DNA of 64,000 nucleotides, taken from assembly GCA_004379165.1 (NCBI GenBank), contig NKXK01000020.1, positions 62,001 through 126,000 on the forward strand, written 5' to 3'. A program made the translations under genes and the position numbers. This stretch comes from Rhodocyclaceae bacterium (GTDB lineage Bacteria > Pseudomonadota > Gammaproteobacteria > Burkholderiales > Rhodocyclaceae). Below the pieces are notes generated by a model. It saw nothing but the letters and a program-made list of their open reading frames with translations. It was not told the origin of the DNA and searched no databases. Position 1 is the first letter of the stretch. Each line of letters opens with the position of its first letter. Shown here piece after piece: positions 18,196 through 61,568 of the stretch.

Positions 18196-18271
18196 GCGGG
18201 AGTAGCTCAGTTGGTAGAGCGCAACCTTGCCAAGGTTGAGGTCGCGAGTTCGAGACTCGTCTCCCGCTCCA
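18196..18271 (+). tRNA. tRNA-Gly (GCC), first copy
   Basis: 76 bases including an encoded CCA. Acceptor GCGGGAG pairs with CTCCCGC, the anticodon loop is CTTGCCAAG (GCC), and the T-arm is GAGTTCGAGACTC. It is identical to the copy at 18411-18486. Confidence 0.97.
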
Positions 18272-18328
18272 GTTAATACTGGCGGAGCAAGTTGAAACAG
18301 TTGGCAGTACGCAAGAGATTGTAGGCGG

Positions 18329-18402
18329 GGCGCGGTAGCAAAGCGGTTATGCACCGGATTGCAAATCCGTGTAGGTCGGTTCGACTCCGGCCCGCGCCTC
18401 CA
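18329..18402 (+). tRNA. tRNA-Cys (GCA)
   Basis: 74 bases with encoded CCA. Acceptor GGCGCGG pairs with CCGCGCC, the anticodon loop is ATTGCAAAT (GCA), and the sequence is close to the E. coli tRNA-Cys pattern. It lies between the two tRNA-Gly copies. Confidence 0.97.
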
Positions 18403-18410
18403 GAGATTCT

Positions 18411-18486
18411 GCGGGAGTAGCTCAGTTGGTAGAGCGCAACCTTGCCAAGGTTGAGGTCGCGAGTTCGAGACTCGTCTCCCGCTCCA
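18411..18486 (+). tRNA. tRNA-Gly (GCC), second copy
   Basis: Identical in sequence to the first tRNA-Gly, with anticodon GCC and encoded CCA. It is the last gene before the operon terminator. The Gly-Cys-Gly order suggests a local duplication maintained for dosage. Confidence 0.97.
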
Positions 18487-18490
18487 AATA

Positions 18491-18523
18491 AAAAGGGAAA
18501 GCGATGATCGCTTTCCCTTTTTT
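18491..18523 (+). terminator. Terminator of the Gly-Cys-Gly tRNA operon
   Basis: AAAAGGGAAAGCGA, loop TGA, TCGCTTTCCCTTTT followed by more T residues: a 14-base-pair stem with a T-run. It separates the first three tRNAs from tRNA-Leu. Confidence 0.92.
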
Positions 18524-18556
18524 GTATCGGCTTGCCGTAGTATCAGCGGCAAACCA

Positions 18557-18642
18557 GCCCGGATGGTGAAATTGGTAGACACAAGAGACTTAAAATCTCT
18601 CGCTCATTGAGCGTACCGGTTCGATTCCGGTTCCGGGCACCA
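18557..18642 (+). tRNA. tRNA-Leu (TAA)
   Basis: 86 bases with a long variable arm typical of type II tRNAs. Acceptor GCCCGGA pairs with TCCGGGC, anticodon TAA, encoded CCA. It lies 11 bases before the DUF1178 gene, so the two may share a transcript. Confidence 0.96.
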
Positions 18643-40485: not shown

Positions 40486-40539
40486 GTTGGCGGAGTGGAC
40501 GGGACTCGAACCCGCGACCCCCGGCGTGACAGGCCGGTA
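40486..40539. repeat. Right attachment-site repeat within tRNA-Asp
   Basis: The 54-base partner of 38392-38445. It lies inside the intact tRNA-Asp gene, so integration left a functional tRNA at this end. Confidence 0.93.
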
Positions 40540-40564
40540 TTCTAACCGACTGAACTACCACTCC
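40488..40564 (-). tRNA. tRNA-Asp (GTC)
   Basis: 77 bases including encoded CCA. Acceptor GGAGTGG pairs with CCACTCC, discriminator G, anticodon loop CCTGTCACG (GTC), T-arm GCGGGTTCGAGTCCCGT. It is intact although its 3' portion is duplicated as an att repeat 2.1 kb away. Its current downstream sequence is the element interior; the old terminator is now beyond the element. Confidence 0.97.
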
Positions 40565-50420: not shown

Positions 50421-53036
<2,616 letters not shown>

Positions 53037-53978
53037 TTGAAAAACGTTCTCGTCATCACCTATTCGCAGAGCGGCCAACTGGCGGAAATCGCTGCGCGCA
53101 TCGTCGCGCCGCTGGAATCGGCCGGTCACCGGGTGCATGTCGAGACGCTGCTGCCTGAGACGCCTTATCCCTGGCCCTGGCCTGTGATTGACTTCATTGA
53201 CGCCTTTCCCGAGTGCGTCCAGCTTGATCCGCCGCCGTTGAAACCACTGGTCATTCCTGTGGGGATCGATTGGGATCTAGTGATCATCACCTATCAGGTC
53301 TGGTATTTATCCCCCGCCCTGCCGGTCACCGCCTTCCTGCAAAGTCCGCACGCGGCGCTGCTCAGGGACAAGCCGGTGGTCACCGTGGTGGCCTGCCGCA
53401 ATATGTGGCTATCCGCCCAGCAGACGCTCAAGCGCCTCATCACCGATTTAGGTGGCCAGCTGCGCGATCACATTGCCTTCACTGACTCCGGTCATCCGCT
53501 GGCGACGTTCATTACTACACCGCGCTGGGTGCTGACCGGGAAGCGTGACCGCTTCTTTGGCCTGCCACCCGCCGGTGTTGCTGCGCCTGAGATCGAAGGT
53601 GCCCGGCGCTTCGGCAGCGCCCTCGCCCGCGCCCTGCATGCGGATGAAGAACGGAGCGGCCGGCCAATGCTGACCGGGCTGCGCGCGGTTACTGTCATCC
53701 CGCGTCTGGCGATGAGCGAGCGCGCCGGCTTCAGGGCCTTCAAGGTCTGGTCGAAGCTGATCCGTGCCTTCGGACAAAGGGGACAATGGCGCAGGCGCCC
53801 GTTGCTGCTGGTTTTTGCCGTCTATCTGGTGACGCTCATCATCACCGTCGTTCCGCTGAGCCTGTTGGTACAATGGCTGCTTTCGCCCATTCTCAAAGGC
53901 CGCATGGCAGCGCTCAAAGCCGAGCTGGAGCAGCCTTCCGGGTCCGCAGATCACCTCATTGAACCTCATGCACCGTAG
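53037..53978 (+). CDS. DarA-like dialkylresorcinol aromatase/condensing enzyme
   Basis: A 313-residue flavodoxin-fold protein. The N-terminus VLVITYSQSGQLAEIAARIV is a flavodoxin-like FMN-phosphate loop, followed by LLPETPYPWPWPVIDFIDAF, VIITYQVWYLSPALPVTAF and VVACRNMWLSAQQT, which match the dialkylresorcinol condensing/aromatising enzyme DarA. A single C-terminal hydrophobic helix (about 260-285) may tether it to the membrane. In dar pathways DarA oxidises the cyclohexanedione made by DarB to a resorcinol. No ATG is available; TTG 53037 is the probable start. It heads a tightly coupled operon. Confidence 0.82.
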   Translation: MKNVLVITYSQSGQLAEIAARIVAPLESAGHRVHVETLLPETPYPWPWPVIDFIDAFPECVQLDPPPLKPLVIPVGIDWDLVIITYQVWYLSPALPVTAFLQSPHAALLRDKPVVTVVACRNMWLSAQQTLKRLITDLGGQLRDHIAFTDSGHPLATFITTPRWVLTGKRDRFFGLPPAGVAAPEIEGARRFGSALARALHADEERSGRPMLTGLRAVTVIPRLAMSERAGFRAFKVWSKLIRAFGQRGQWRRRPLLLVFAVYLVTLIITVVPLSLLVQWLLSPILKGRMAALKAELEQPSGSADHLIEPHAP

Positions 53979-55140
53979 CGGCGCAGTTTTCATCACCGGC
54001 ACCTCCGCCTTCCTGCCCAACGCCCCGGTCGGCAACGACGACATCGAATCCGTCCTCGGCATGGTCGGCGGCAAGCCTTCGCGCGCGCGCCGCGTCGTGC
54101 TGCGTAGCAACGGCATCCGCCAGCGCCATTACGCCATCGACCCGACCAGCGGAGGCTTCACCCACTCCAACGCGCAACTGACCGCTGAGGCCATTCGCCT
54201 GCTGCAATCAGGCGGGCTCGACACCGCCAGAATCGACCTGCTGGCCTGCGGCACCTCCTGCGCGGACCAGCTGATGCCCAACCATGGCGTCATGGTTCAT
54301 GGCGAACTCGGCAATCCGCCGTGTGAAGTCATCGCTACTGGCGGCATCTGCGTCTCCGGCCTGACCGCGCTCAAATACGCCTGGTTGTCAGTGCTGGTCG
54401 GCGAGGCTCGGTGCGCTGTCGCCACCGGCTCGGAACGCGCCTCCGGCGGCCTGCTGGCGCGCAACTTCGAAGCCGAATCGGCGGCCAAGCTGGCTGCGCT
54501 GGAAACCAACCCGGAAATTGCCTTCGAGAAGGATTTTCTGCGCTGGATGCTTTCCGACGGCGCCGGCGCCTGCCTGCTGGAAGCGCAGCCGCTCGCCGAC
54601 GGCGCGTCGCTGCGCATCGACTGGATCGACATCTTGTCGCAAGCCAACAGCAACGAAACCTGCATGTACGCGGGCGGCGAAAAGGCCGCGGATGGCCAGC
54701 TGAAAGGCTGGCAGGAGTTTACGCAGGACGAATGGGCGCGGCACTCGGTCTTTGCGGTCAAGCAGGACGTCCGACTGCTCAACGAGGCCGTCGTCGAACA
54801 GACGCTGGGCAAAACCATTGCCCAAGTCGTACCGCGCCGCGGGCTTCGTGCCGACCAGATCGACTGGTTCCTGCCGCACATGTCGTCGGAGTTTTTCCGG
54901 CAGCCGATGATCGACTGCATGCGGACCGCCGGCTTCACCATCCCTCAAGACAAGTGGTTTACCAACCTGCACAGCAAGGGCAACACCGGTTCGGCGTCGA
55001 TCTACATCATGCTCGATGAACTCTTCCGCAGCGGCCAGCTTGGTGACGGCCAGCGCATCCTTTGCTTCGTGCCGGAAAGCGGCCGTTTCACCGGCGCCTT
55101 CATGCACCTGACCGTTGTCGGTGCCAGCCGCCATGCGTGA
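53968..55140 (+). CDS. DarB-like ketosynthase III
   Basis: A 390-residue KAS III-type thiolase-fold enzyme. The catalytic triad is Cys128 (ATGGICVSGL), His304 (WFLPHMSSEFF) and Asn339 (SKGNTGSASIY), all retained. The LPHMSSEFF and GNTGSASIYIMLDEL signatures fit DarB, which fuses a beta-ketoacyl thioester with a second acyl unit and cyclises to a 1,3-cyclohexanedione. ATG 53968 overlaps the previous gene by 11 bases. Chain donors cannot be read from sequence. Confidence 0.87.
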   Translation: MHRSGAVFITGTSAFLPNAPVGNDDIESVLGMVGGKPSRARRVVLRSNGIRQRHYAIDPTSGGFTHSNAQLTAEAIRLLQSGGLDTARIDLLACGTSCADQLMPNHGVMVHGELGNPPCEVIATGGICVSGLTALKYAWLSVLVGEARCAVATGSERASGGLLARNFEAESAAKLAALETNPEIAFEKDFLRWMLSDGAGACLLEAQPLADGASLRIDWIDILSQANSNETCMYAGGEKAADGQLKGWQEFTQDEWARHSVFAVKQDVRLLNEAVVEQTLGKTIAQVVPRRGLRADQIDWFLPHMSSEFFRQPMIDCMRTAGFTIPQDKWFTNLHSKGNTGSASIYIMLDELFRSGQLGDGQRILCFVPESGRFTGAFMHLTVVGASRHA

Positions 55141-55528
55141 CCAGGACGTCCCCCAAGAAGGCAACCGGACACTGGGCGGCCATCGCAAGGCGGTCTATGC
55201 CCGTGGCGACGATGGCCGACTGCACATGGTCGCTTCTGCCGGCTGGGAGGTCGAGGAAATCGTCACCAGCCAGGCGGTGGCCGATCTTGAACGCCTTGCG
55301 GCTGACGCGTTGCAGCGCTTCCGGGCCGGACTGACCGCACCGCTGGAGGTGCACATGCACCGCGCGCGGATGGACATCCCTTTGCTGGCTCAAGCCACCG
55401 GACTCTGGCAGTGGCGCGTGCGTCGCCATCTGCGTCCGGAGATTTTCCAGCGACTTTCCCCCGCATTGCTTCAACGCTATGCCGAAGCGCTCGGACTGAG
55501 CGTAGTGCAACTCAAGGACGTCGCGTGA
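55133..55528 (+). CDS. Small unknown protein with HTH-like C-terminus
   Basis: A 131-residue protein. The C-terminal half (DIPLLAQATGLWQWRVRRHL, then FQRLSPALLQRYAEALGLSV) has the spacing of a Cro/C1-like helix-turn-helix; the N-terminal half is unassigned (KAVYARGDDGRLHMVASAGW). It starts at ATG 55133, eight bases inside the ketosynthase gene, and its stop overlaps the next GTG. A pathway-specific regulator or an adaptor are both possible; neither is shown. Confidence 0.6.
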   Translation: MRDQDVPQEGNRTLGGHRKAVYARGDDGRLHMVASAGWEVEEIVTSQAVADLERLAADALQRFRAGLTAPLEVHMHRARMDIPLLAQATGLWQWRVRRHLRPEIFQRLSPALLQRYAEALGLSVVQLKDVA

Positions 55529-56517
55529 GTGAATTACAGCACGCGCAGGCATCACACTGCGAAAGTGGCGTCATGTCGACCATGCTCCGTCATCACGGAC
55601 TGGCGATCAGTGAACCGATGGCCTTCGGGTTGTCCTCGGCGATTTCATTTGCCTACCTGCCGATTGTCCGCATCAACGGCCTGCCGCTGGTCGCCTACCG
55701 CATGCCGCCCAAATGGATCATCAAGGGTCTGCAAAAACCGCTGGCGCTGAAGATGCGCTTCGAGACCTTTCGCCGGCCCGAAGACGGCGTCCGCCGCCTC
55801 GATCAATTGCTGGCCGATGGCCAGGTCGTTGGCCTGCAGACCTCGGTCTATTGGCTGCCCTACCTGCCAGAAGACCTGCGTTTTCATTTCAACGCCCACA
55901 ATATCCTCGCCTTCGGCAAGGCAGATGATGGCAGCTACCGGATTTCCGACCCGGTTGCCGAAATGACGGTCACCTGCCCGCCCGACGCGCTGCAGCGGGC
56001 ACGTTTTGCCAAGGGTGTACTGGCGCCCAAGGGGCTGATCTACTACCCGCTGGGTCGCCCGCAGGAACCGGCCTGGGAAAAGGTGGTGCCCAAGGCCATC
56101 GTCAAGACCGCCCGCATCATGCTTGACTCGCCACTGCCGATCATCGGCGTGCGCGGCATCCGCCGACTGGCTGCGGCCATCGAGCGCCTCGAAACCGGTA
56201 CCGATGCCCAACACAGCAAGCTCTTCATCGGCCAGGTCGTGCGCATGCAGGAAGAAATCGGTACCGGCGGCGGTGGCTTCCGCTTCATTTACGCCAGCTT
56301 CCTGCAGGAAGCCGCCGACCGACTGGCCCGCCCGGTCCTCAACGAACTGGCCGACACGCTGATCGACATTGGCGACGAGTGGCGCGAATTCGCGCTGGCC
56401 ACGGCGCGCATGATCCGCGACCGCGATCCGCTTGATCCGCCGCGTCTGGCTGACAAGCTGCGTACCATCGCCCACCGGGAACAGACTTTCTTCCGCGACC
56501 TGCGCCGCGCTGCATGA
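55525..56517 (+). CDS. BtrH N-terminal domain (DUF4872-type) protein
   Basis: A 330-residue cytoplasmic protein. The N-terminal HCESGVMSTMLRHHGLAISE, then FGLSSAISFAYLP, match the BtrH_N domain, a papain-like fold with the Cys-His core; BtrH in butirosin synthesis moves an acyl chain from its ACP onto an aminoglycoside. The DUF4872-like C-terminal part follows. Here a carrier protein is encoded three genes downstream, so acyl transfer from that ACP is a reasonable inference. GTG start at 55525 overlaps the preceding stop. Confidence 0.78.
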   Translation: MSELQHAQASHCESGVMSTMLRHHGLAISEPMAFGLSSAISFAYLPIVRINGLPLVAYRMPPKWIIKGLQKPLALKMRFETFRRPEDGVRRLDQLLADGQVVGLQTSVYWLPYLPEDLRFHFNAHNILAFGKADDGSYRISDPVAEMTVTCPPDALQRARFAKGVLAPKGLIYYPLGRPQEPAWEKVVPKAIVKTARIMLDSPLPIIGVRGIRRLAAAIERLETGTDAQHSKLFIGQVVRMQEEIGTGGGGFRFIYASFLQEAADRLARPVLNELADTLIDIGDEWREFALATARMIRDRDPLDPPRLADKLRTIAHREQTFFRDLRRAA

Positions 56518-57428
56518 CACTGAGCATCAGCGCTGTTTCTCACACCTATCGCGGCGCCCGCGAGGCGGCGCTCGACAGCGTTTCGCTGAACATTCCGGCC
56601 GGTGGCGTTTTCGGACTGCTCGGCCCCAATGGCGCGGGCAAAACGACGCTGATTTCGCTGATCTGCGGTCTGCTCGAATCCGATCAGGGTCTCATCACGC
56701 TCGACGACGAACCGCTGGCCCTGGTTCGTGCCGCTGACCCGGCGCGCGTCGCGCTGGTGCCGCAGGATTACGCCTTCTACCCGATGCTCAGCGTCGTCGA
56801 GAACCTGCGTTTTTTCGGTGGCGCACTCGGTCTATCTGGGGCACTGTTGCGCCAGCGCTGCGACGCCGCGATCGCGTTCGCCCGACTGGAACAGGTCACC
56901 GGCAAGCTCGCCGAAACCCTCTCCGGCGGCCTGCGCCGGCGCCTCAATCTTGCCATCGGCCTGCTCGGCGAGCCGCGACTGCTGCTACTCGACGAACCGA
57001 CGGTCGGCGTCGATCCGCAGTCCCGCCATTTCCTGCTCGACGCCATTGCCGGCCTGCCGGCCAGCGGCACGACGGTAATCTATACCAGTCACTACATGGA
57101 GGAAGTCGAGGCGATCTGCCAGCGGCTGGCCATTCTCGATCAAGGCAAGGTCCTGGCTGCCGGGACACTGGGCGAATTGCTCGACAGCGACGAACAGACG
57201 CTGGAACTTCGCCTCGACCGCCCCCTGCCAGAGAGCCTGCTCAGCAAATACCACGCCGTTCCCAGCGGTGCGCTCGATTTTGGCCTGTTTTTGCCGTCGA
57301 CCGCAGCACTGCCCGAACTGCTTGCCGAACTCGCCGCCGCCGGTTGCGAAATCTGCTATCTGTCGCTTGGCCGGCAGAATCTGGAACAGGTTTTCATGCG
57401 GCTGACCCGTCGTTCCCTGAGGGACTGA
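56514..57428 (+). CDS. ABC transporter ATP-binding protein
   Basis: A 304-residue ATPase of the ABC-2 exporter class: Walker A LLGPNGAGKTTLISL, signature TLSGGLRRRLNLAIGL, Walker B LLLLDEPTVGVDPQ, and the H-loop TSHYMEEVEAICQRLA. The C-terminal ~70 residues resemble the regulatory extension of drug and lipid exporters. It overlaps the BtrH-like gene by four bases and pairs with the permease seven bases downstream, presumably exporting the pathway product. Confidence 0.93.
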   Translation: MTLSISAVSHTYRGAREAALDSVSLNIPAGGVFGLLGPNGAGKTTLISLICGLLESDQGLITLDDEPLALVRAADPARVALVPQDYAFYPMLSVVENLRFFGGALGLSGALLRQRCDAAIAFARLEQVTGKLAETLSGGLRRRLNLAIGLLGEPRLLLLDEPTVGVDPQSRHFLLDAIAGLPASGTTVIYTSHYMEEVEAICQRLAILDQGKVLAAGTLGELLDSDEQTLELRLDRPLPESLLSKYHAVPSGALDFGLFLPSTAALPELLAELAAAGCEICYLSLGRQNLEQVFMRLTRRSLRD

Positions 57429-57434
57429 TCTGTC

Positions 57435-58658
57435 ATGTCGAGTTTGCTTCCGCGTCTGCACGCCCTCTGGACCAAGGAAACGCTGGCCCTGCTGCGCGAC
57501 CGTCACGGCTTGGCGGCGCTGTTCGTCATGCCGGTGATCTTCATCCTGGTCATGACGATGGCCCTGCACGACGCCTTTATGCCCGGCGCCTCGATCGACG
57601 TTGCCTACGCCGTCGTCGATCTCGATAACAGTCCGCAATCGCAGGCGCTGGTGCGCCGTCTGGACAAGTCCGGGAGTTTCAGACGGATTGCCGTCGGGCA
57701 GGATCTCGATGCTGCCCGCCAGGGCATCCGCGAAAACCAGTACGCGCTGGTGCTGGGGCTGCCGGCTAAATTCGGCGAACGCCTGCTCGCCCCCGCGGGT
57801 GCCGACGGCCAACCGACCGAGCCTTTGACCCTGCTCGTCGATCCCACCCTCAACCCCGCGCTGCAGCTCGCCTTCCGCAACCAGACCGCGGCGGCACTCG
57901 GGACCATCCGTGCCGACGAACTAACGCGACGCGCCGGCAAGCTCTTCGGCCTGCCAGTTTCGCCCGCCGCCGAACGCGACTGGCCGGACGAAATCGTCAG
58001 CATCGCCGTCCAGAACCAGCGCAGCATCCGGCCACCCTCATCGGTGCAACAGAACGTCCCGGCATGGCTGGTGTTTGCGATGTTCTTCGTCGTCATCCCG
58101 ATTGCCTCCATCTTCATCATCGAGCGCCAGGAAGGCACGCTGCAGCGCCTGCGCGCCATCGGCCTGCCCTTCGGGCATATCCTCGCCGGCAAGCTGCTGC
58201 CTTTTTTTGTCGTCAATCAGCTGCAAGCGGTGTTGATGGTTCTGGTTGGCATGTTCATTGTCCCCATGCTCGGCGGCGAGGCCCTGCACATGCCCGCCGG
58301 CCGCTCGCTCATTCACTGGTGGCTGGTCGCGGCCTCGGTCAGCCTTGCCGCCGTCGCCTTCGCGCTGCTGGTCGCCAGCCTGACGCGCACCTCGCAGCAG
58401 GCCGTGGTCGTCGGTGGCGTCGGCAACATCCTGATGGGCGCCGTCGGCGGCATCATGGTCCCCAAATTCATGATGCCCGCCGCCATGCAGCGCCTTGCCG
58501 AATGGTCGCCAATGGCCTGGGGGCTGGATGGTTTCCACACGGTGATGCTCCGTCAGGGCGGTTTCGACGCCATCCTCCCCGACCTGCTCAAACTGCTGAC
58601 CTTCGCCGCGCTGTCGCTGACCGCTGCCGTCTGGCTCAATCGCTCAAGCCAACCATGA
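57435..58658 (+). CDS. ABC-2 type transporter permease
   Basis: A 407-residue permease of the ABC-2/YhhJ type: one N-terminal transmembrane helix (ALFVMPVIFILVMTMAL), a large extracytoplasmic loop (about 50-225), then five more helices including LVFAMFFVVIPIASIFII, the coupling region ERQEGTLQRLRAIGLP, and a final hydrophobic segment near the C-terminus. It partners the ATPase just upstream. The large loop is common in exporters of lipids or hydrophobic compounds. The stop overlaps the ACP start (ATGA). Confidence 0.92.
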   Translation: MSSLLPRLHALWTKETLALLRDRHGLAALFVMPVIFILVMTMALHDAFMPGASIDVAYAVVDLDNSPQSQALVRRLDKSGSFRRIAVGQDLDAARQGIRENQYALVLGLPAKFGERLLAPAGADGQPTEPLTLLVDPTLNPALQLAFRNQTAAALGTIRADELTRRAGKLFGLPVSPAAERDWPDEIVSIAVQNQRSIRPPSSVQQNVPAWLVFAMFFVVIPIASIFIIERQEGTLQRLRAIGLPFGHILAGKLLPFFVVNQLQAVLMVLVGMFIVPMLGGEALHMPAGRSLIHWWLVAASVSLAAVAFALLVASLTRTSQQAVVVGGVGNILMGAVGGIMVPKFMMPAAMQRLAEWSPMAWGLDGFHTVMLRQGGFDAILPDLLKLLTFAALSLTAAVWLNRSSQP

Positions 58659-58924
58659 CCACCGACCTCCGCCTCGCCCTGAAAACCCTGATCATCGAAG
58701 CCTGCGACAAGGATTGCGAGCCATCGGCGATTACTGATGACGAGGTTCTGTTCGGGCCCGAGGCACCGCTGCAACTCGACTCGCTCGACGCGCTGCAGAT
58801 TTCGATGGCAATCAAGAAGCAGTACGGCCTGCGCCTGCCGGACAGCAAGGAAACCCGGCGGATTCTGTCCAACGTGGCGAACATGGCCGAGCATCTTAAA
58901 AGCTGGCTGGCGCAGCGGACTTGA
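58655..58924 (+). CDS. Acyl carrier protein of the resorcinol-lipid cluster
   Basis: An 89-residue carrier protein. The phosphopantetheine attachment site reads LQLDSLDALQISMAI, with Ser about residue 46, in the normal DSL context. The N-terminal helix is typical (LALKTLIIEACDKDCEPSAI). Being separate from primary fatty acid genes, it corresponds to DarC in role. AcpS at 11.9 kb could activate it. Confidence 0.9.
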   Translation: MTTDLRLALKTLIIEACDKDCEPSAITDDEVLFGPEAPLQLDSLDALQISMAIKKQYGLRLPDSKETRRILSNVANMAEHLKSWLAQRT

Positions 58925-58925
58925 G

Positions 58926-60008
58926 ATGCGTGGCAAGCGGCCGGTTTTCTTCCACGACAGCGCGCTGCTCTGCGCCCGCGGGCTGACGCCAGCCACCGCC
59001 GCCGCTGCACTCTGGCGCGGCGAGTGCAGCGCCAAGCAGCGCCGGGTTGCCCCGCACTGCCTGCCTTATCAGTCGCTGCCCTTGCCCGAGTCCGACTGGT
59101 GGTCGCGGGCGGAAACCGCCCTCCGGCAACTTGCAGCCCAGTTATCCGACCTGCCGCCCGAAACGCCACTCTTCGTTGCCTCGTCATCCTTTCAAATGGG
59201 AGGATTCGAAGCGACGGGCGCCCCCTTCGATCTTCCGGCAGCAAGCGCCTCGTTCGCTCCCCGTCTGGCAGACTGGCTGGGTCTGACCGGGCCGCGCTAC
59301 AGCTTCTCCAATGCCTGTATTTCCGGGTTTTCGGCAATCGACGCCGCGGCCACCCTGATCGCCGACGGATTGCTCGATGAGGCGCTGGTGATTGGCGTCG
59401 AACTGGCCAACAACACGACGCTGGCCGGCTTCGCCGCCATGGAATTGCTTTCTTCCACCGCCAGCCGGCCGCTCGACCGCGACCGCGACGGATTGGTGCT
59501 GGGCGAAGGCATCGCCGCCATCCGGCTCTCTGCCCAGCCGACCAACTGGCGTCTGGCGGCAGTGCGAACCGGACTCGACGCCCACTCGCTAACCGGCCCC
59601 GACCCGAGTGGGCGCCCCTTGGCCGAAGTGCTTGCCCAAACGCTCTCCGCCGCCGAAATGACGCCCGCCGAGATCGACCTGATCAAACTTCAGGCTGCCG
59701 GCGCACCGATCACCGATCTGGCGGAGGCCCGCGCCATCGAGCAGGTTTTTGGCGCCCCCCGCCCGCCGCTGATGTCGATCAAACCGGCGCTCGGCCACAC
59801 CCTGGGCGCCTCAGGGGTTGTCGAACTGGTCACGCTGCTGGCCTGTCTCGAACACGACCAGATACCCGCCACAGCGGGCTTCCGTACGCCCGATCCCGAA
59901 TTTTCGACGGTTTTTCCGGTTCACCGCAGCACGCTCCCGGTACGCCGGGCGCTGCTCAATCTGGTCGGTTTTGGCGGTGGGCTGGCGGCGATGGTCATCG
60001 AACGCTGA
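58926..60008 (+). CDS. Divergent beta-ketoacyl synthase lacking the first catalytic His
   Basis: A 360-residue KAS I/II-like protein. The nucleophile Cys131 is present (FSNACISGFSA) and so is the second His, His291 (PALGHTLGASG). The segment that should read NAHGTS, as in the window's own FabF, is QAAGAP, so the first His is replaced by Ala258. The LVGFGGGLAAMV end is intact. Without that His, decarboxylative elongation should be impaired; a priming, transfer or heterodimer role is possible. The start is one base after the ACP stop; the stop overlaps the next start. Confidence 0.85.
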   Translation: MRGKRPVFFHDSALLCARGLTPATAAAALWRGECSAKQRRVAPHCLPYQSLPLPESDWWSRAETALRQLAAQLSDLPPETPLFVASSSFQMGGFEATGAPFDLPAASASFAPRLADWLGLTGPRYSFSNACISGFSAIDAAATLIADGLLDEALVIGVELANNTTLAGFAAMELLSSTASRPLDRDRDGLVLGEGIAAIRLSAQPTNWRLAAVRTGLDAHSLTGPDPSGRPLAEVLAQTLSAAEMTPAEIDLIKLQAAGAPITDLAEARAIEQVFGAPRPPLMSIKPALGHTLGASGVVELVTLLACLEHDQIPATAGFRTPDPEFSTVFPVHRSTLPVRRALLNLVGFGGGLAAMVIER

Positions 60009-60688
60009 TGAAAATCACGCTGAATCATCTTCTGACACAGCGCCTGCCCGTCGCCGACCTGGGCAACGAGGTCCGCCAGCGGCTCGGCAAGCCACTACGC
60101 CGCGCCTCCCCGCTGACCCAACTGGCAGTCAGCGGCGCCCTTGCCTGCCTGCCCGACCCAGCTGCAACGCAGCCGCTAGCCTTGCTCTGGCAATCGACCT
60201 ACGGCCCGCGAGCGGAAACGCTGGCGCTGCTTGACGAAGTCTGCTGCGGCGCGGGTGAGCCGCTGCCCTTCGATTTCCTCGCCAGTCAGCCGGCCATCGC
60301 CGCCGCCCAGCTCAAGCCCTGGCTGCCCTGCTTGCAGACGGCACACCACCTGCCGCTCGACGACGAAGCGCAGACCCAATGGACGCTGATGCTCGCTCTC
60401 GCCCACGCCTGGCTGAGCGAAGGCCGTTATGCACAGGTGCTGTGCGCCCATCTCGACATCGCCGACGGCCAGGCAAGCGGCGACTGGCTGCTGCTGCGCT
60501 GCCATTCCGAACACCCGCCGCTGGCCGAACTCAGCCTGGCCAGCGCAGCGCCGGCCACACAGGCCCGCGACGACAGGGATTTCCCAGCACACCTCGCAAC
60601 CTTGCTTGCCCAGCCTTCCGGCAGGGACCGACGGCTGCGCCTGCAATCTCCCGCGTTGCCCAAGCTGGCGGTAGAATTCGCCCGCTAA
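60008..60688 (+). CDS. Ketoacyl-synthase-like chain-length-factor protein
   Basis: A 226-residue protein resembling the ketoacyl-synt_2 family (chain-length-factor-like) seen in aryl polyene and resorcinol clusters: LRRASPLTQLAVSGALACLP, LLWQSTYGPRAETLALLDEV and PLPFDFLASQPAIAAAQL. It has only the N-terminal half of a ketosynthase fold and no nucleophile Cys in the usual place. It is likely to pair with the degenerate synthase encoded directly upstream, with overlapping stop and start. Confidence 0.78.
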   Translation: MKITLNHLLTQRLPVADLGNEVRQRLGKPLRRASPLTQLAVSGALACLPDPAATQPLALLWQSTYGPRAETLALLDEVCCGAGEPLPFDFLASQPAIAAAQLKPWLPCLQTAHHLPLDDEAQTQWTLMLALAHAWLSEGRYAQVLCAHLDIADGQASGDWLLLRCHSEHPPLAELSLASAAPATQARDDRDFPAHLATLLAQPSGRDRRLRLQSPALPKLAVEFAR

Positions 60689-60710: not shown

Positions 60711-61568
60711 ATGTCCGAATTTGCTTTTGACGTTTCCATCGAGAATTTCGAGGCGCAGGTCTTGATCCCCGCCGATACCGTGCCCGTTGTCGTCGATTTC
60801 TGGGCGCCGTGGTGCCAGCCCTGCCAGACGCTGAAGCCGATGCTGGAAAAGCTTGCCGAGGAATACAAGGGCCGTTTCCTGCTCGCCAAGGTCAATTCCG
60901 ACGAAAACCCGGAACTGGCGCAACACTTTGGCGTGCGCAGCATCCCTTCCGTCAAGGTGCTCTTCCAGGGCCAACTGGTCGATGAATTCAATGGCGCCCT
61001 GCCGGAATCCCAGGTTCGCGAATTTCTTGACCGCATTGCCCTGCCCGCCGGCCCGGAACACGCCGACCTGCGTCAGGTCGCTGCCGGCCTCGTCGCCGAA
61101 GGGAAACTGGAAGAAGCCCTGGCCACGCTGGTACAAGCCAGCCAGGCCAACCCGCAGGATCAGGCGATCCAGCTCGACGCCGTCGAAGTGCTGATGCAAC
61201 TCGGCCGCAACGATGAAGCCAAGCAACTGCTCGGCGGCGACTACGCCAACGAAGCCGAGCGCGCCAATGCCCTGCGCGCCCGTCTGGCGCTGCTCGACGG
61301 CGCTGCCGACATCGCCCCGCTGGAAGCCAAACTGGCCGCTAACGCCGACGACCACGCCACCCGCCTCGAACTCTCCAAGGCCTATGCCGCACAAGGGCGT
61401 TTCCGTGAAGCGCTGGAAGCGGCTCTGGAAGTCGTCCGCCGCGACCGCTTCTTCGATCAGGGTGCCGGCCGTGCCGCCATTCTGTCGCTGTTCGAGGCGC
61501 TGAACGGCGAGCAGTACGACGACCTCGTGCGCGAATTCCGCCGCAAGCTCTCGGCCACCCTCAACTAA
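60711..61568 (+). CDS. ybbN: Thioredoxin-TPR co-chaperone (YbbN/CnoX)
   Basis: A 285-residue protein: an N-terminal thioredoxin domain (residues about 5-110) with WAPWCQPCQTLKPMLEKLA, so a CQPC redox motif rather than CGPC, and a C-terminal TPR-like region (QVAAGLVAEGKLEEALATLV and later helices). CnoX proteins hold oxidised substrates and pass them to GroEL/DnaK. It follows the lipid operon by 22 bases and might be co-transcribed, but the gene is widely conserved independently. Confidence 0.93.
   Translation: MSEFAFDVSIENFEAQVLIPADTVPVVVDFWAPWCQPCQTLKPMLEKLAEEYKGRFLLAKVNSDENPELAQHFGVRSIPSVKVLFQGQLVDEFNGALPESQVREFLDRIALPAGPEHADLRQVAAGLVAEGKLEEALATLVQASQANPQDQAIQLDAVEVLMQLGRNDEAKQLLGGDYANEAERANALRARLALLDGAADIAPLEAKLAANADDHATRLELSKAYAAQGRFREALEAALEVVRRDRFFDQGAGRAAILSLFEALNGEQYDDLVREFRRKLSATLN

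Follow-up and report, generated by a model that had tools for sequence, protein, structure and literature searches.

The window analysed here is a 64-kb stretch of contig NKXK01000020.1 from a Rhodocyclaceae bacterium. On its plus strand, at 53037-60688, lies an operon of nine open reading frames (ORFs), all of them open, with the gene content of the published arcuflavin-type dialkylresorcinol (DAR) clusters. The operon is a real and conserved further member of these clusters, and its gene set is not new. Gene names follow the arcuflavin paper (PMC3949708) throughout. NCBIfam uses DarG and DarH for the DarD and DarE of that paper, which reserves the names DarG and DarH for a toxin-antitoxin pair.

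The initial annotation of this DNA described nine co-directional, mostly overlapping genes between pyrG and ybbN, and this is the arrangement found. Six of the eight junctions are overlaps (20, 8, 4, 4, 4, and 1 bp) and two are gaps (6 and 1 bp). The additional statement that ATGA-type overlaps join most of the genes goes too far, because only three junctions overlap by 4 bp: darE/darF and darI/darC with ATGA, and darD/darE with GTGA.

Proteins of the operon and their active sites

The first two proteins had been assigned to the DarA and DarB families, and profile searches support the second assignment and leave the first without a family above cut-off. DarB (53959..55140, with a possible alternative ATG start at 53968) matches the StlD/DarB family NF005293 with 602.9 bits (cut-off 450), and remains under the stricter DarB model NF053539 (497.2 bits, cut-off 550). 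The protein aligns with StlD (PDB 5gk0) at 504 bits, and its Cys131, His307, and Asn342 coincide with the StlD residues and are kept in 72 of 72 rows, in agreement with the proposed ketosynthase III with an intact C/H/N triad. The product of darA (53037..53978, TTG start) shows a weak flavodoxin-type match (E-value 0.0018) and no family above cut-off in the Pfam/NCBIfam profile library. Its designation as a putative DAR aromatase, DarA, is thus not confirmed by profile, and follows from its position, its conservation, and the flavodoxin-type match. Two further library matches, to PurT_C (E-value 0.063) and NF002645 (E-value 0.002; 17.4 bits, cut-off 389), were taken as chance.

The other proteins agree with their earlier descriptions, namely a helix-turn-helix (HTH)-like protein, a BtrH-domain protein, an ATP-binding cassette (ABC)-2 ATPase with its permease, an acyl carrier protein (ACP), a degenerate ketosynthase, and a chain-length-factor (CLF)-like protein. 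The HTH-like protein, DarD (55133..55528), carries a C-terminal Cro/C1-type HTH fold and matches NF053536, the "DarG family dialkylresorcinol biosynthesis protein" (164.2 bits, cut-off 70). DarE (55525..56517, GTG start) matches NF053550, "BtrH-related acyltransferase DarH" (465 bits, cut-off 300), together with the Pfam domains BtrH_N (PF14399) and DUF4872 (PF16169). Its putative catalytic residues Cys12, His125, and Asp142 are invariant in 80 of 80 rows, and a profile search for relatives of solved structure returned none. BtrH, from butirosin biosynthesis, transfers an ACP-bound acyl group to a small-molecule acceptor. In a comparison by domains, DarE shares both with BtrH, and it differs in belonging to a separate NCBIfam equivalog. 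The ABC ATPase DarF (56514..57428; PF00005, 3.9e-29) has drrA and NodI as its best NCBIfam matches, both under their own cut-offs, and is followed by the ABC-2 permease DarI (57435..58658; PF12698, 5.6e-35). DarC (58655..58924) is an ACP by PF00550 (22.1 bits, cut-off 20.8) and resembles PRK09184 below the cut-off of that model (44.8 bits, cut-off 70).

The ketosynthase DarJ (58926..60008; PF00109/PF02801) keeps Cys131, Lys286, and His291, as do 68 of 68 rows. It fails the C-H-H pattern of decarboxylating beta-ketoacyl synthases by having Gln256 in place of the first His of the HGT motif. The same replacement is seen in 31 of the 68 rows, the window copy included; 27 of the other 30 come from records with betaproteobacterial titles, and three (L077, L079, and L097) are titled only Proteobacteria. 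A single betaproteobacterial row, that of Pseudothauera (L081), retains the His. An enzyme lacking it would be expected to be impaired in decarboxylative condensation, not in acyl transfer, and the absence of this His from most betaproteobacterial DarJ rows poses a concrete enzyme question. The last protein, DarK (60008..60688), has no family match up to an E-value of 0.1 and models as a thiolase/CLF-like fold. Its fold matches include ApeC (6qsp) and the ishigamide CLF (6kxd), with ordinary FabF proteins scoring nearly equal. DarJ and DarK resemble ketosynthase-CLF pairs such as ApeO-ApeC and that of ishigamide, and differ from them in the missing DarJ His and in the length of DarK, only 226 aa.

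Residue counts exclude ORFs outside the length range, and some rows counted as DarJ (e.g., L106 and L142) are possibly other ketosynthases. The DarJ alignment held 20 DarJ rows and one arc ketosynthase, and the rows used for the other proteins were 17 of 22 tried for DarA, nine for DarE, 34 of 81 for DarD, and 17 of 19 for DarK (L073 and L127 left out).

Conservation and history of the pyrG-ybbN site

At all 17 same-genus loci read, taken from 17 of the 42 other DarE-positive genomes of the genus and chosen among long contigs, kdsA-pyrG is followed by the nine dar genes in order and then by ybbN. This comparison of the pyrG-ybbN interval, suggested by the initial annotation, shows neighbours that are conserved together and therefore rules out a chance grouping. 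In the window, pyrG (51250..52890, minus strand, start at MTKYVF) is divergent from darA, and ybbN (60711..61568, plus strand, with Thioredoxin and TPR_20 domains) begins 22 bp past darK. An extended -10 promoter element, TTTGCTAGAAT (52999..53009, plus strand), stands 36 nt upstream of the darA start and is not listed by a consensus promoter scan, which requires a -35 box. The form TGnTARAAT is found 37-39 nt upstream of darA in 17 of 17 same-genus loci, 15 of which also keep the TTG start.

Within the genus, 43 of 76 genomes have DarE. An order-wide sample of 200 genomes has it in five, the present genome among them, and four of these five are over the cut-off. One genome, G143, has all nine genes in order without pyrG or ybbN flanks inside 20 kb, and another, G024, has six of the nine at its locus. 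In G152, a protein (L052, 9281-10024) resembles DarE weakly, at 61 bits against a cut-off of 300, and no darA, darB, or darD match lies within 20 kb.

The best 80 of 561 DarE loci from named genomes were compared by tblastn of the fetched flanks; some of these loci are ended by contig edges, and some darF matches are possibly other ATPases. Among these best 80, darD was found at 80, darB at 76, darF and darI at 74 each, darC and darA at 71 each, darJ at 63, and darK at 15. The darF-I-C-J genes are opposed to darA-B-D-E at 24 of them (e.g., L111, L120, L131, L139, and L146), including all 12 titled Pseudomonas, and the genes run in single file in Vibrio, Photobacterium, and most betaproteobacterial loci. 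The BtrH partner and the exporter, which had been taken to distinguish this operon, thus recur with the other dar homologues in most of the best 80 of 561 loci. The 2-hexyl-5-propylresorcinol darABC set of Pseudomonas chlororaphis/aurantiaca comprises DarA, DarB, and an ACP, as in the operon here, and is not known to include DarE, DarF, DarI, or a polyene partner.

The same nine-gene set had already been published for Azoarcus sp. BH72 (azo0283-0293), listed in Table 1 of PMC3949708 as darK-J-C-I-(PilT, Phd)-F-E-D-B-A, with darE labelled a "BtrH-like peptidase". Compared by annotation and families, not by sequence alignment, the two operons share the same genes in the same order (A-B-D-E-F-I-C-J-K). 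They differ in the Phd/PilT pair that separates darF and darI in the tabulated Azoarcus cluster and is missing here, and in the position of the present operon between pyrG and ybbN.

Empty pyrG-ybbN sites were sought in 20 of the 33 DarE-negative genomes of the genus, and ybbN was located in 19. In 15 of these 19 it lies 104-167 bp from pyrG, and in three no pyrG match occurs within the stretch read. G214 is DarE-positive and yet has an empty site, and its dar genes must therefore lie elsewhere. The motif TGnTARAAT was not found in that form at any of 16 empty sites. At three of these 16 (L160, L161, and L163, in G221, G255, and G264) the gap matches the 3' end of darK, each match beating 500 of 500 single-base shuffles of a profile comparison built from 14 of 18 dar-positive sequences, the other four having no anchor. 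By sequence, these matches suggest the scar of a loss by deletion. The darK 3' end also contains a TAGAAT block in common with the empty sites, which may be the -10 element of a ybbN promoter. A different remnant is found in G256 (L162), the last of the 19, where darF-I-C-J-K stand beside ybbN without darA-B-D-E; this may reflect partial loss, rearrangement, or an assembly effect. An ORF adjoining that remnant resembles a sigma-54 activator, as named from its translation.

Aryl-polyene genes elsewhere in the genome

The genome (3.06 Mb, 44 contigs) carries an aryl-polyene gene set of the arc type on contig C23, unlinked to the dar operon. It includes a PRK09185 ketosynthase (542.1 bits, cut-off 407), a Ketoacyl-synt_2 CLF-like protein, a ketoreductase, two ACPs, a FabF-like ketosynthase, an AMP-ligase, a lipid-A-type acyltransferase, LolA, an MMPL exporter, and a polysaccharide deacetylase. 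Only its position points to one further ORF as a dehydratase, and that ORF has no Pfam match at 1e-5. Contig C38 encodes a XanB2/ArcB-type chorismatase (PF21168, 130.6 bits, cut-off 27), in a family which also covers the FkbO and Hyg5 types, together with a halogenase (ended by the contig edge), MipA, an acyltransferase, a glycosyltransferase, a methyltransferase, and a Na/H antiporter. This order is close to arcA-G of Azoarcus, the methyltransferase occupying the place of arcF. A further PRK09184-type ACP (L008/L012; 77.9 bits, cut-off 70) lies on another contig of the same genome (G000:C1:80992-81255).

From the operon itself, which indeed has no reductase, dehydratase, or ligase, the initial annotation had concluded that only primary fatty acid synthesis supplies the acyl chains. 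This part does not hold, because C23 and C38 carry polyene-making genes, with ketosynthases, a ketoreductase, an AMP-ligase, and a chorismatase among their products. As in Azoarcus, these genes lie at distinct genome sites. The polyene gene set makes an aryl-polyene acid the most likely conjugated acyl group, and a conjugated resorcinol, among the products first proposed, remains likely. As the partner genes are on other contigs, the operon read alone can give the wrong product.

The occurrence of polyene genes was followed in a class sample of 370 genomes at least 90% complete, own genome included. DarB was found in 24 of them (19 over the cut-off), DarE in 18 of these 24, and a polyene ketosynthase in 85 of the 370. 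The polyene ketosynthase is present in all 18 genomes that combine DarB and DarE, against two of the six with DarB and no DarE, five of which have a DarB below the cut-off. Ignoring shared ancestry, Fisher tests give p = 7e-13 when the 18 are compared with all other genomes and p = 0.0014 within the DarB-positive genomes. Within the genus, the polyene ketosynthase is present in 39 of 43 DarE-positive and 21 of 33 DarE-negative genomes (p = 0.005), one of the 39 matches (G225) being partial and under the cut-off. Three of the four remaining DarE-positive genomes have the AMP-ligase ArcT, bringing those with a polyene marker to 42 of 43. At the best 80 of 561 DarE loci, an arcK-type match was seen in the fetched flanks of 14.

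Published systems also combine DAR and polyene genes. Azoarcus BH72 makes the polyene-DAR pigment arcuflavin, with an ester bond predicted from mass spectrometry and free DAR undetectable in its extracts; its polyene genes lie at separate genome places, and DAR clusters with polyene genes are also reported for Dechloromonas aromatica RCB, three Variovorax paradoxus strains, and Sideroxydans lithotrophicus (PMC3949708). The flexirubin systems of Chitinophaga pinensis and Flavobacterium johnsoniae are alike in DarA/DarB, a polyene-DAR ester, LolA, and exporter genes, and differ in using tyrosine as polyene starter, as far as described in PMC3992019, where the present genome has a chorismatase. 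DarD also differs from its flexirubin counterpart, with 112.7 bits under the DarG equivalog NF053545 (cut-off 170).

Probable product and the joining of its halves

Taken together, these observations make it very probable that the operon makes and attaches the DAR half of an arcuflavin-like aryl-polyene-DAR ester, a yellow pigment of the arcuflavin/flexirubin group. As published for homologues, DarB would condense two fatty-acid-derived units to a cyclohexanedione, which DarA would oxidise to a 2,5-dialkylresorcinol, and the alkyl chains may come from fatty-acid metabolism, by analogy with published DARs. DarC and the ketosynthase-like pair DarJ/DarK would supply or load an acyl unit. The polyene would be built by the products of the C23 genes, on a hydroxybenzoate starter provided by the C38 chorismatase. 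DarE, as a cysteine acyltransferase of the BtrH type, would then esterify a resorcinol hydroxyl with the ACP-bound aryl-polyene acyl group, and DarF/DarI would serve in export or membrane placement. That DarE is the joining enzyme is indicated by its one-way co-occurrence with polyene genes. A more specific and tentative proposal is that DarE forms the ester of arcuflavin/flexirubin-type pigments in general and, at the same time, that betaproteobacterial DarJ/DarK act as a non-condensing acyl-loading transferase for DarC. The gene set as such is unremarkable, one more copy of a pigment operon already in the literature. The operon is of value in that it makes testable the joining of polyene and resorcinol, a step only proposed in the literature consulted. 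No demonstration of DarE joining the two halves was found in the open-access literature.

Several points weigh against this assignment. Gene content, gene order, co-occurrence, and active-site state are shown here, and the product, the joining role of DarE, and the role of DarJ/DarK are inferred from them. The putative aromatase DarA fits no curated family, and the polyene marker NF006618 denotes aryl polyenes generally, not arcuflavin. The Fisher values overstate independence because the genomes share ancestry, and the search for DarE covered the 24 DarB-positive genomes of the 370 and four others. The polyene ketosynthase in the 21 DarE-negative genomes of the genus makes the link one-way, and in one DarE-positive genome (G216, 83% complete) neither the polyene ketosynthase nor ArcT was found. 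Two class genomes combine DarB with the polyene ketosynthase without DarE, G449 with a full DarB and G612 with a weaker one. On the experimental side, the mutants described in the text consulted of PMC3949708 affect arcK and arcT and none of the dar genes, and for C. pinensis flexirubin the proposed joining enzyme is the ligase-like FlxW (PMC3992019).

The genomes G449 and G612 and the FlxW proposal favour the alternative that DAR and polyene are both made and that another enzyme, such as a FlxW-like ligase or an acyltransferase of the arc cluster, forms the ester, with DarE loading DarC or serving another acceptor. Two more acyltransferases and a glycosyltransferase are encoded on the arc contigs. 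This alternative is possible but rather doubtful, as darE has darB as its neighbour at 76 of the best 80 of 561 DarE loci and occurs together with polyene genes, and BtrH chemistry is of the required kind, an acyl group carried by an ACP being passed to a small molecule. A product independent of the polyene, that is, an exported or conjugated resorcinol or cyclohexanedione lipid with chains solely from primary fatty acid synthesis, would agree with an operon that lacks its own reductase, dehydratase, and ligase, has its own ABC-2 exporter, and lies on a different contig from the polyene cluster. It is improbable given the polyene genes and starter chorismatase of this genome, the polyene markers in all 18 class and 42 of 43 genus genomes, and the Azoarcus hybrid pigment made with the same gene set and without detectable free DAR (PMC3949708).

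A further alternative, in which the genus has lost the operon repeatedly and the present copy is silent or decaying, with no current function, is very improbable. Loss would be reflected in the 33 of 76 genus genomes where DarE was not found (19 of 51 when completeness of 90% or more and contamination of 5% or less are required), the apparent darK scars at three of 16 empty sites, the G256 remnant, and the missing DarJ His. Decay is opposed by the nine open frames, the intact catalytic triad of DarB, the likewise intact putative catalytic residues of DarE, and the promoter element kept upstream of darA at 17 of 17 loci. The arcuflavin-like ester remains the preferred product.

Elsewhere in the window, four successive tRNA genes (Gly, Cys, Gly, and Leu) lie at 18196-18642, and a tRNA-Asp gene is found at 40488-40564 on the strand opposite to that row.

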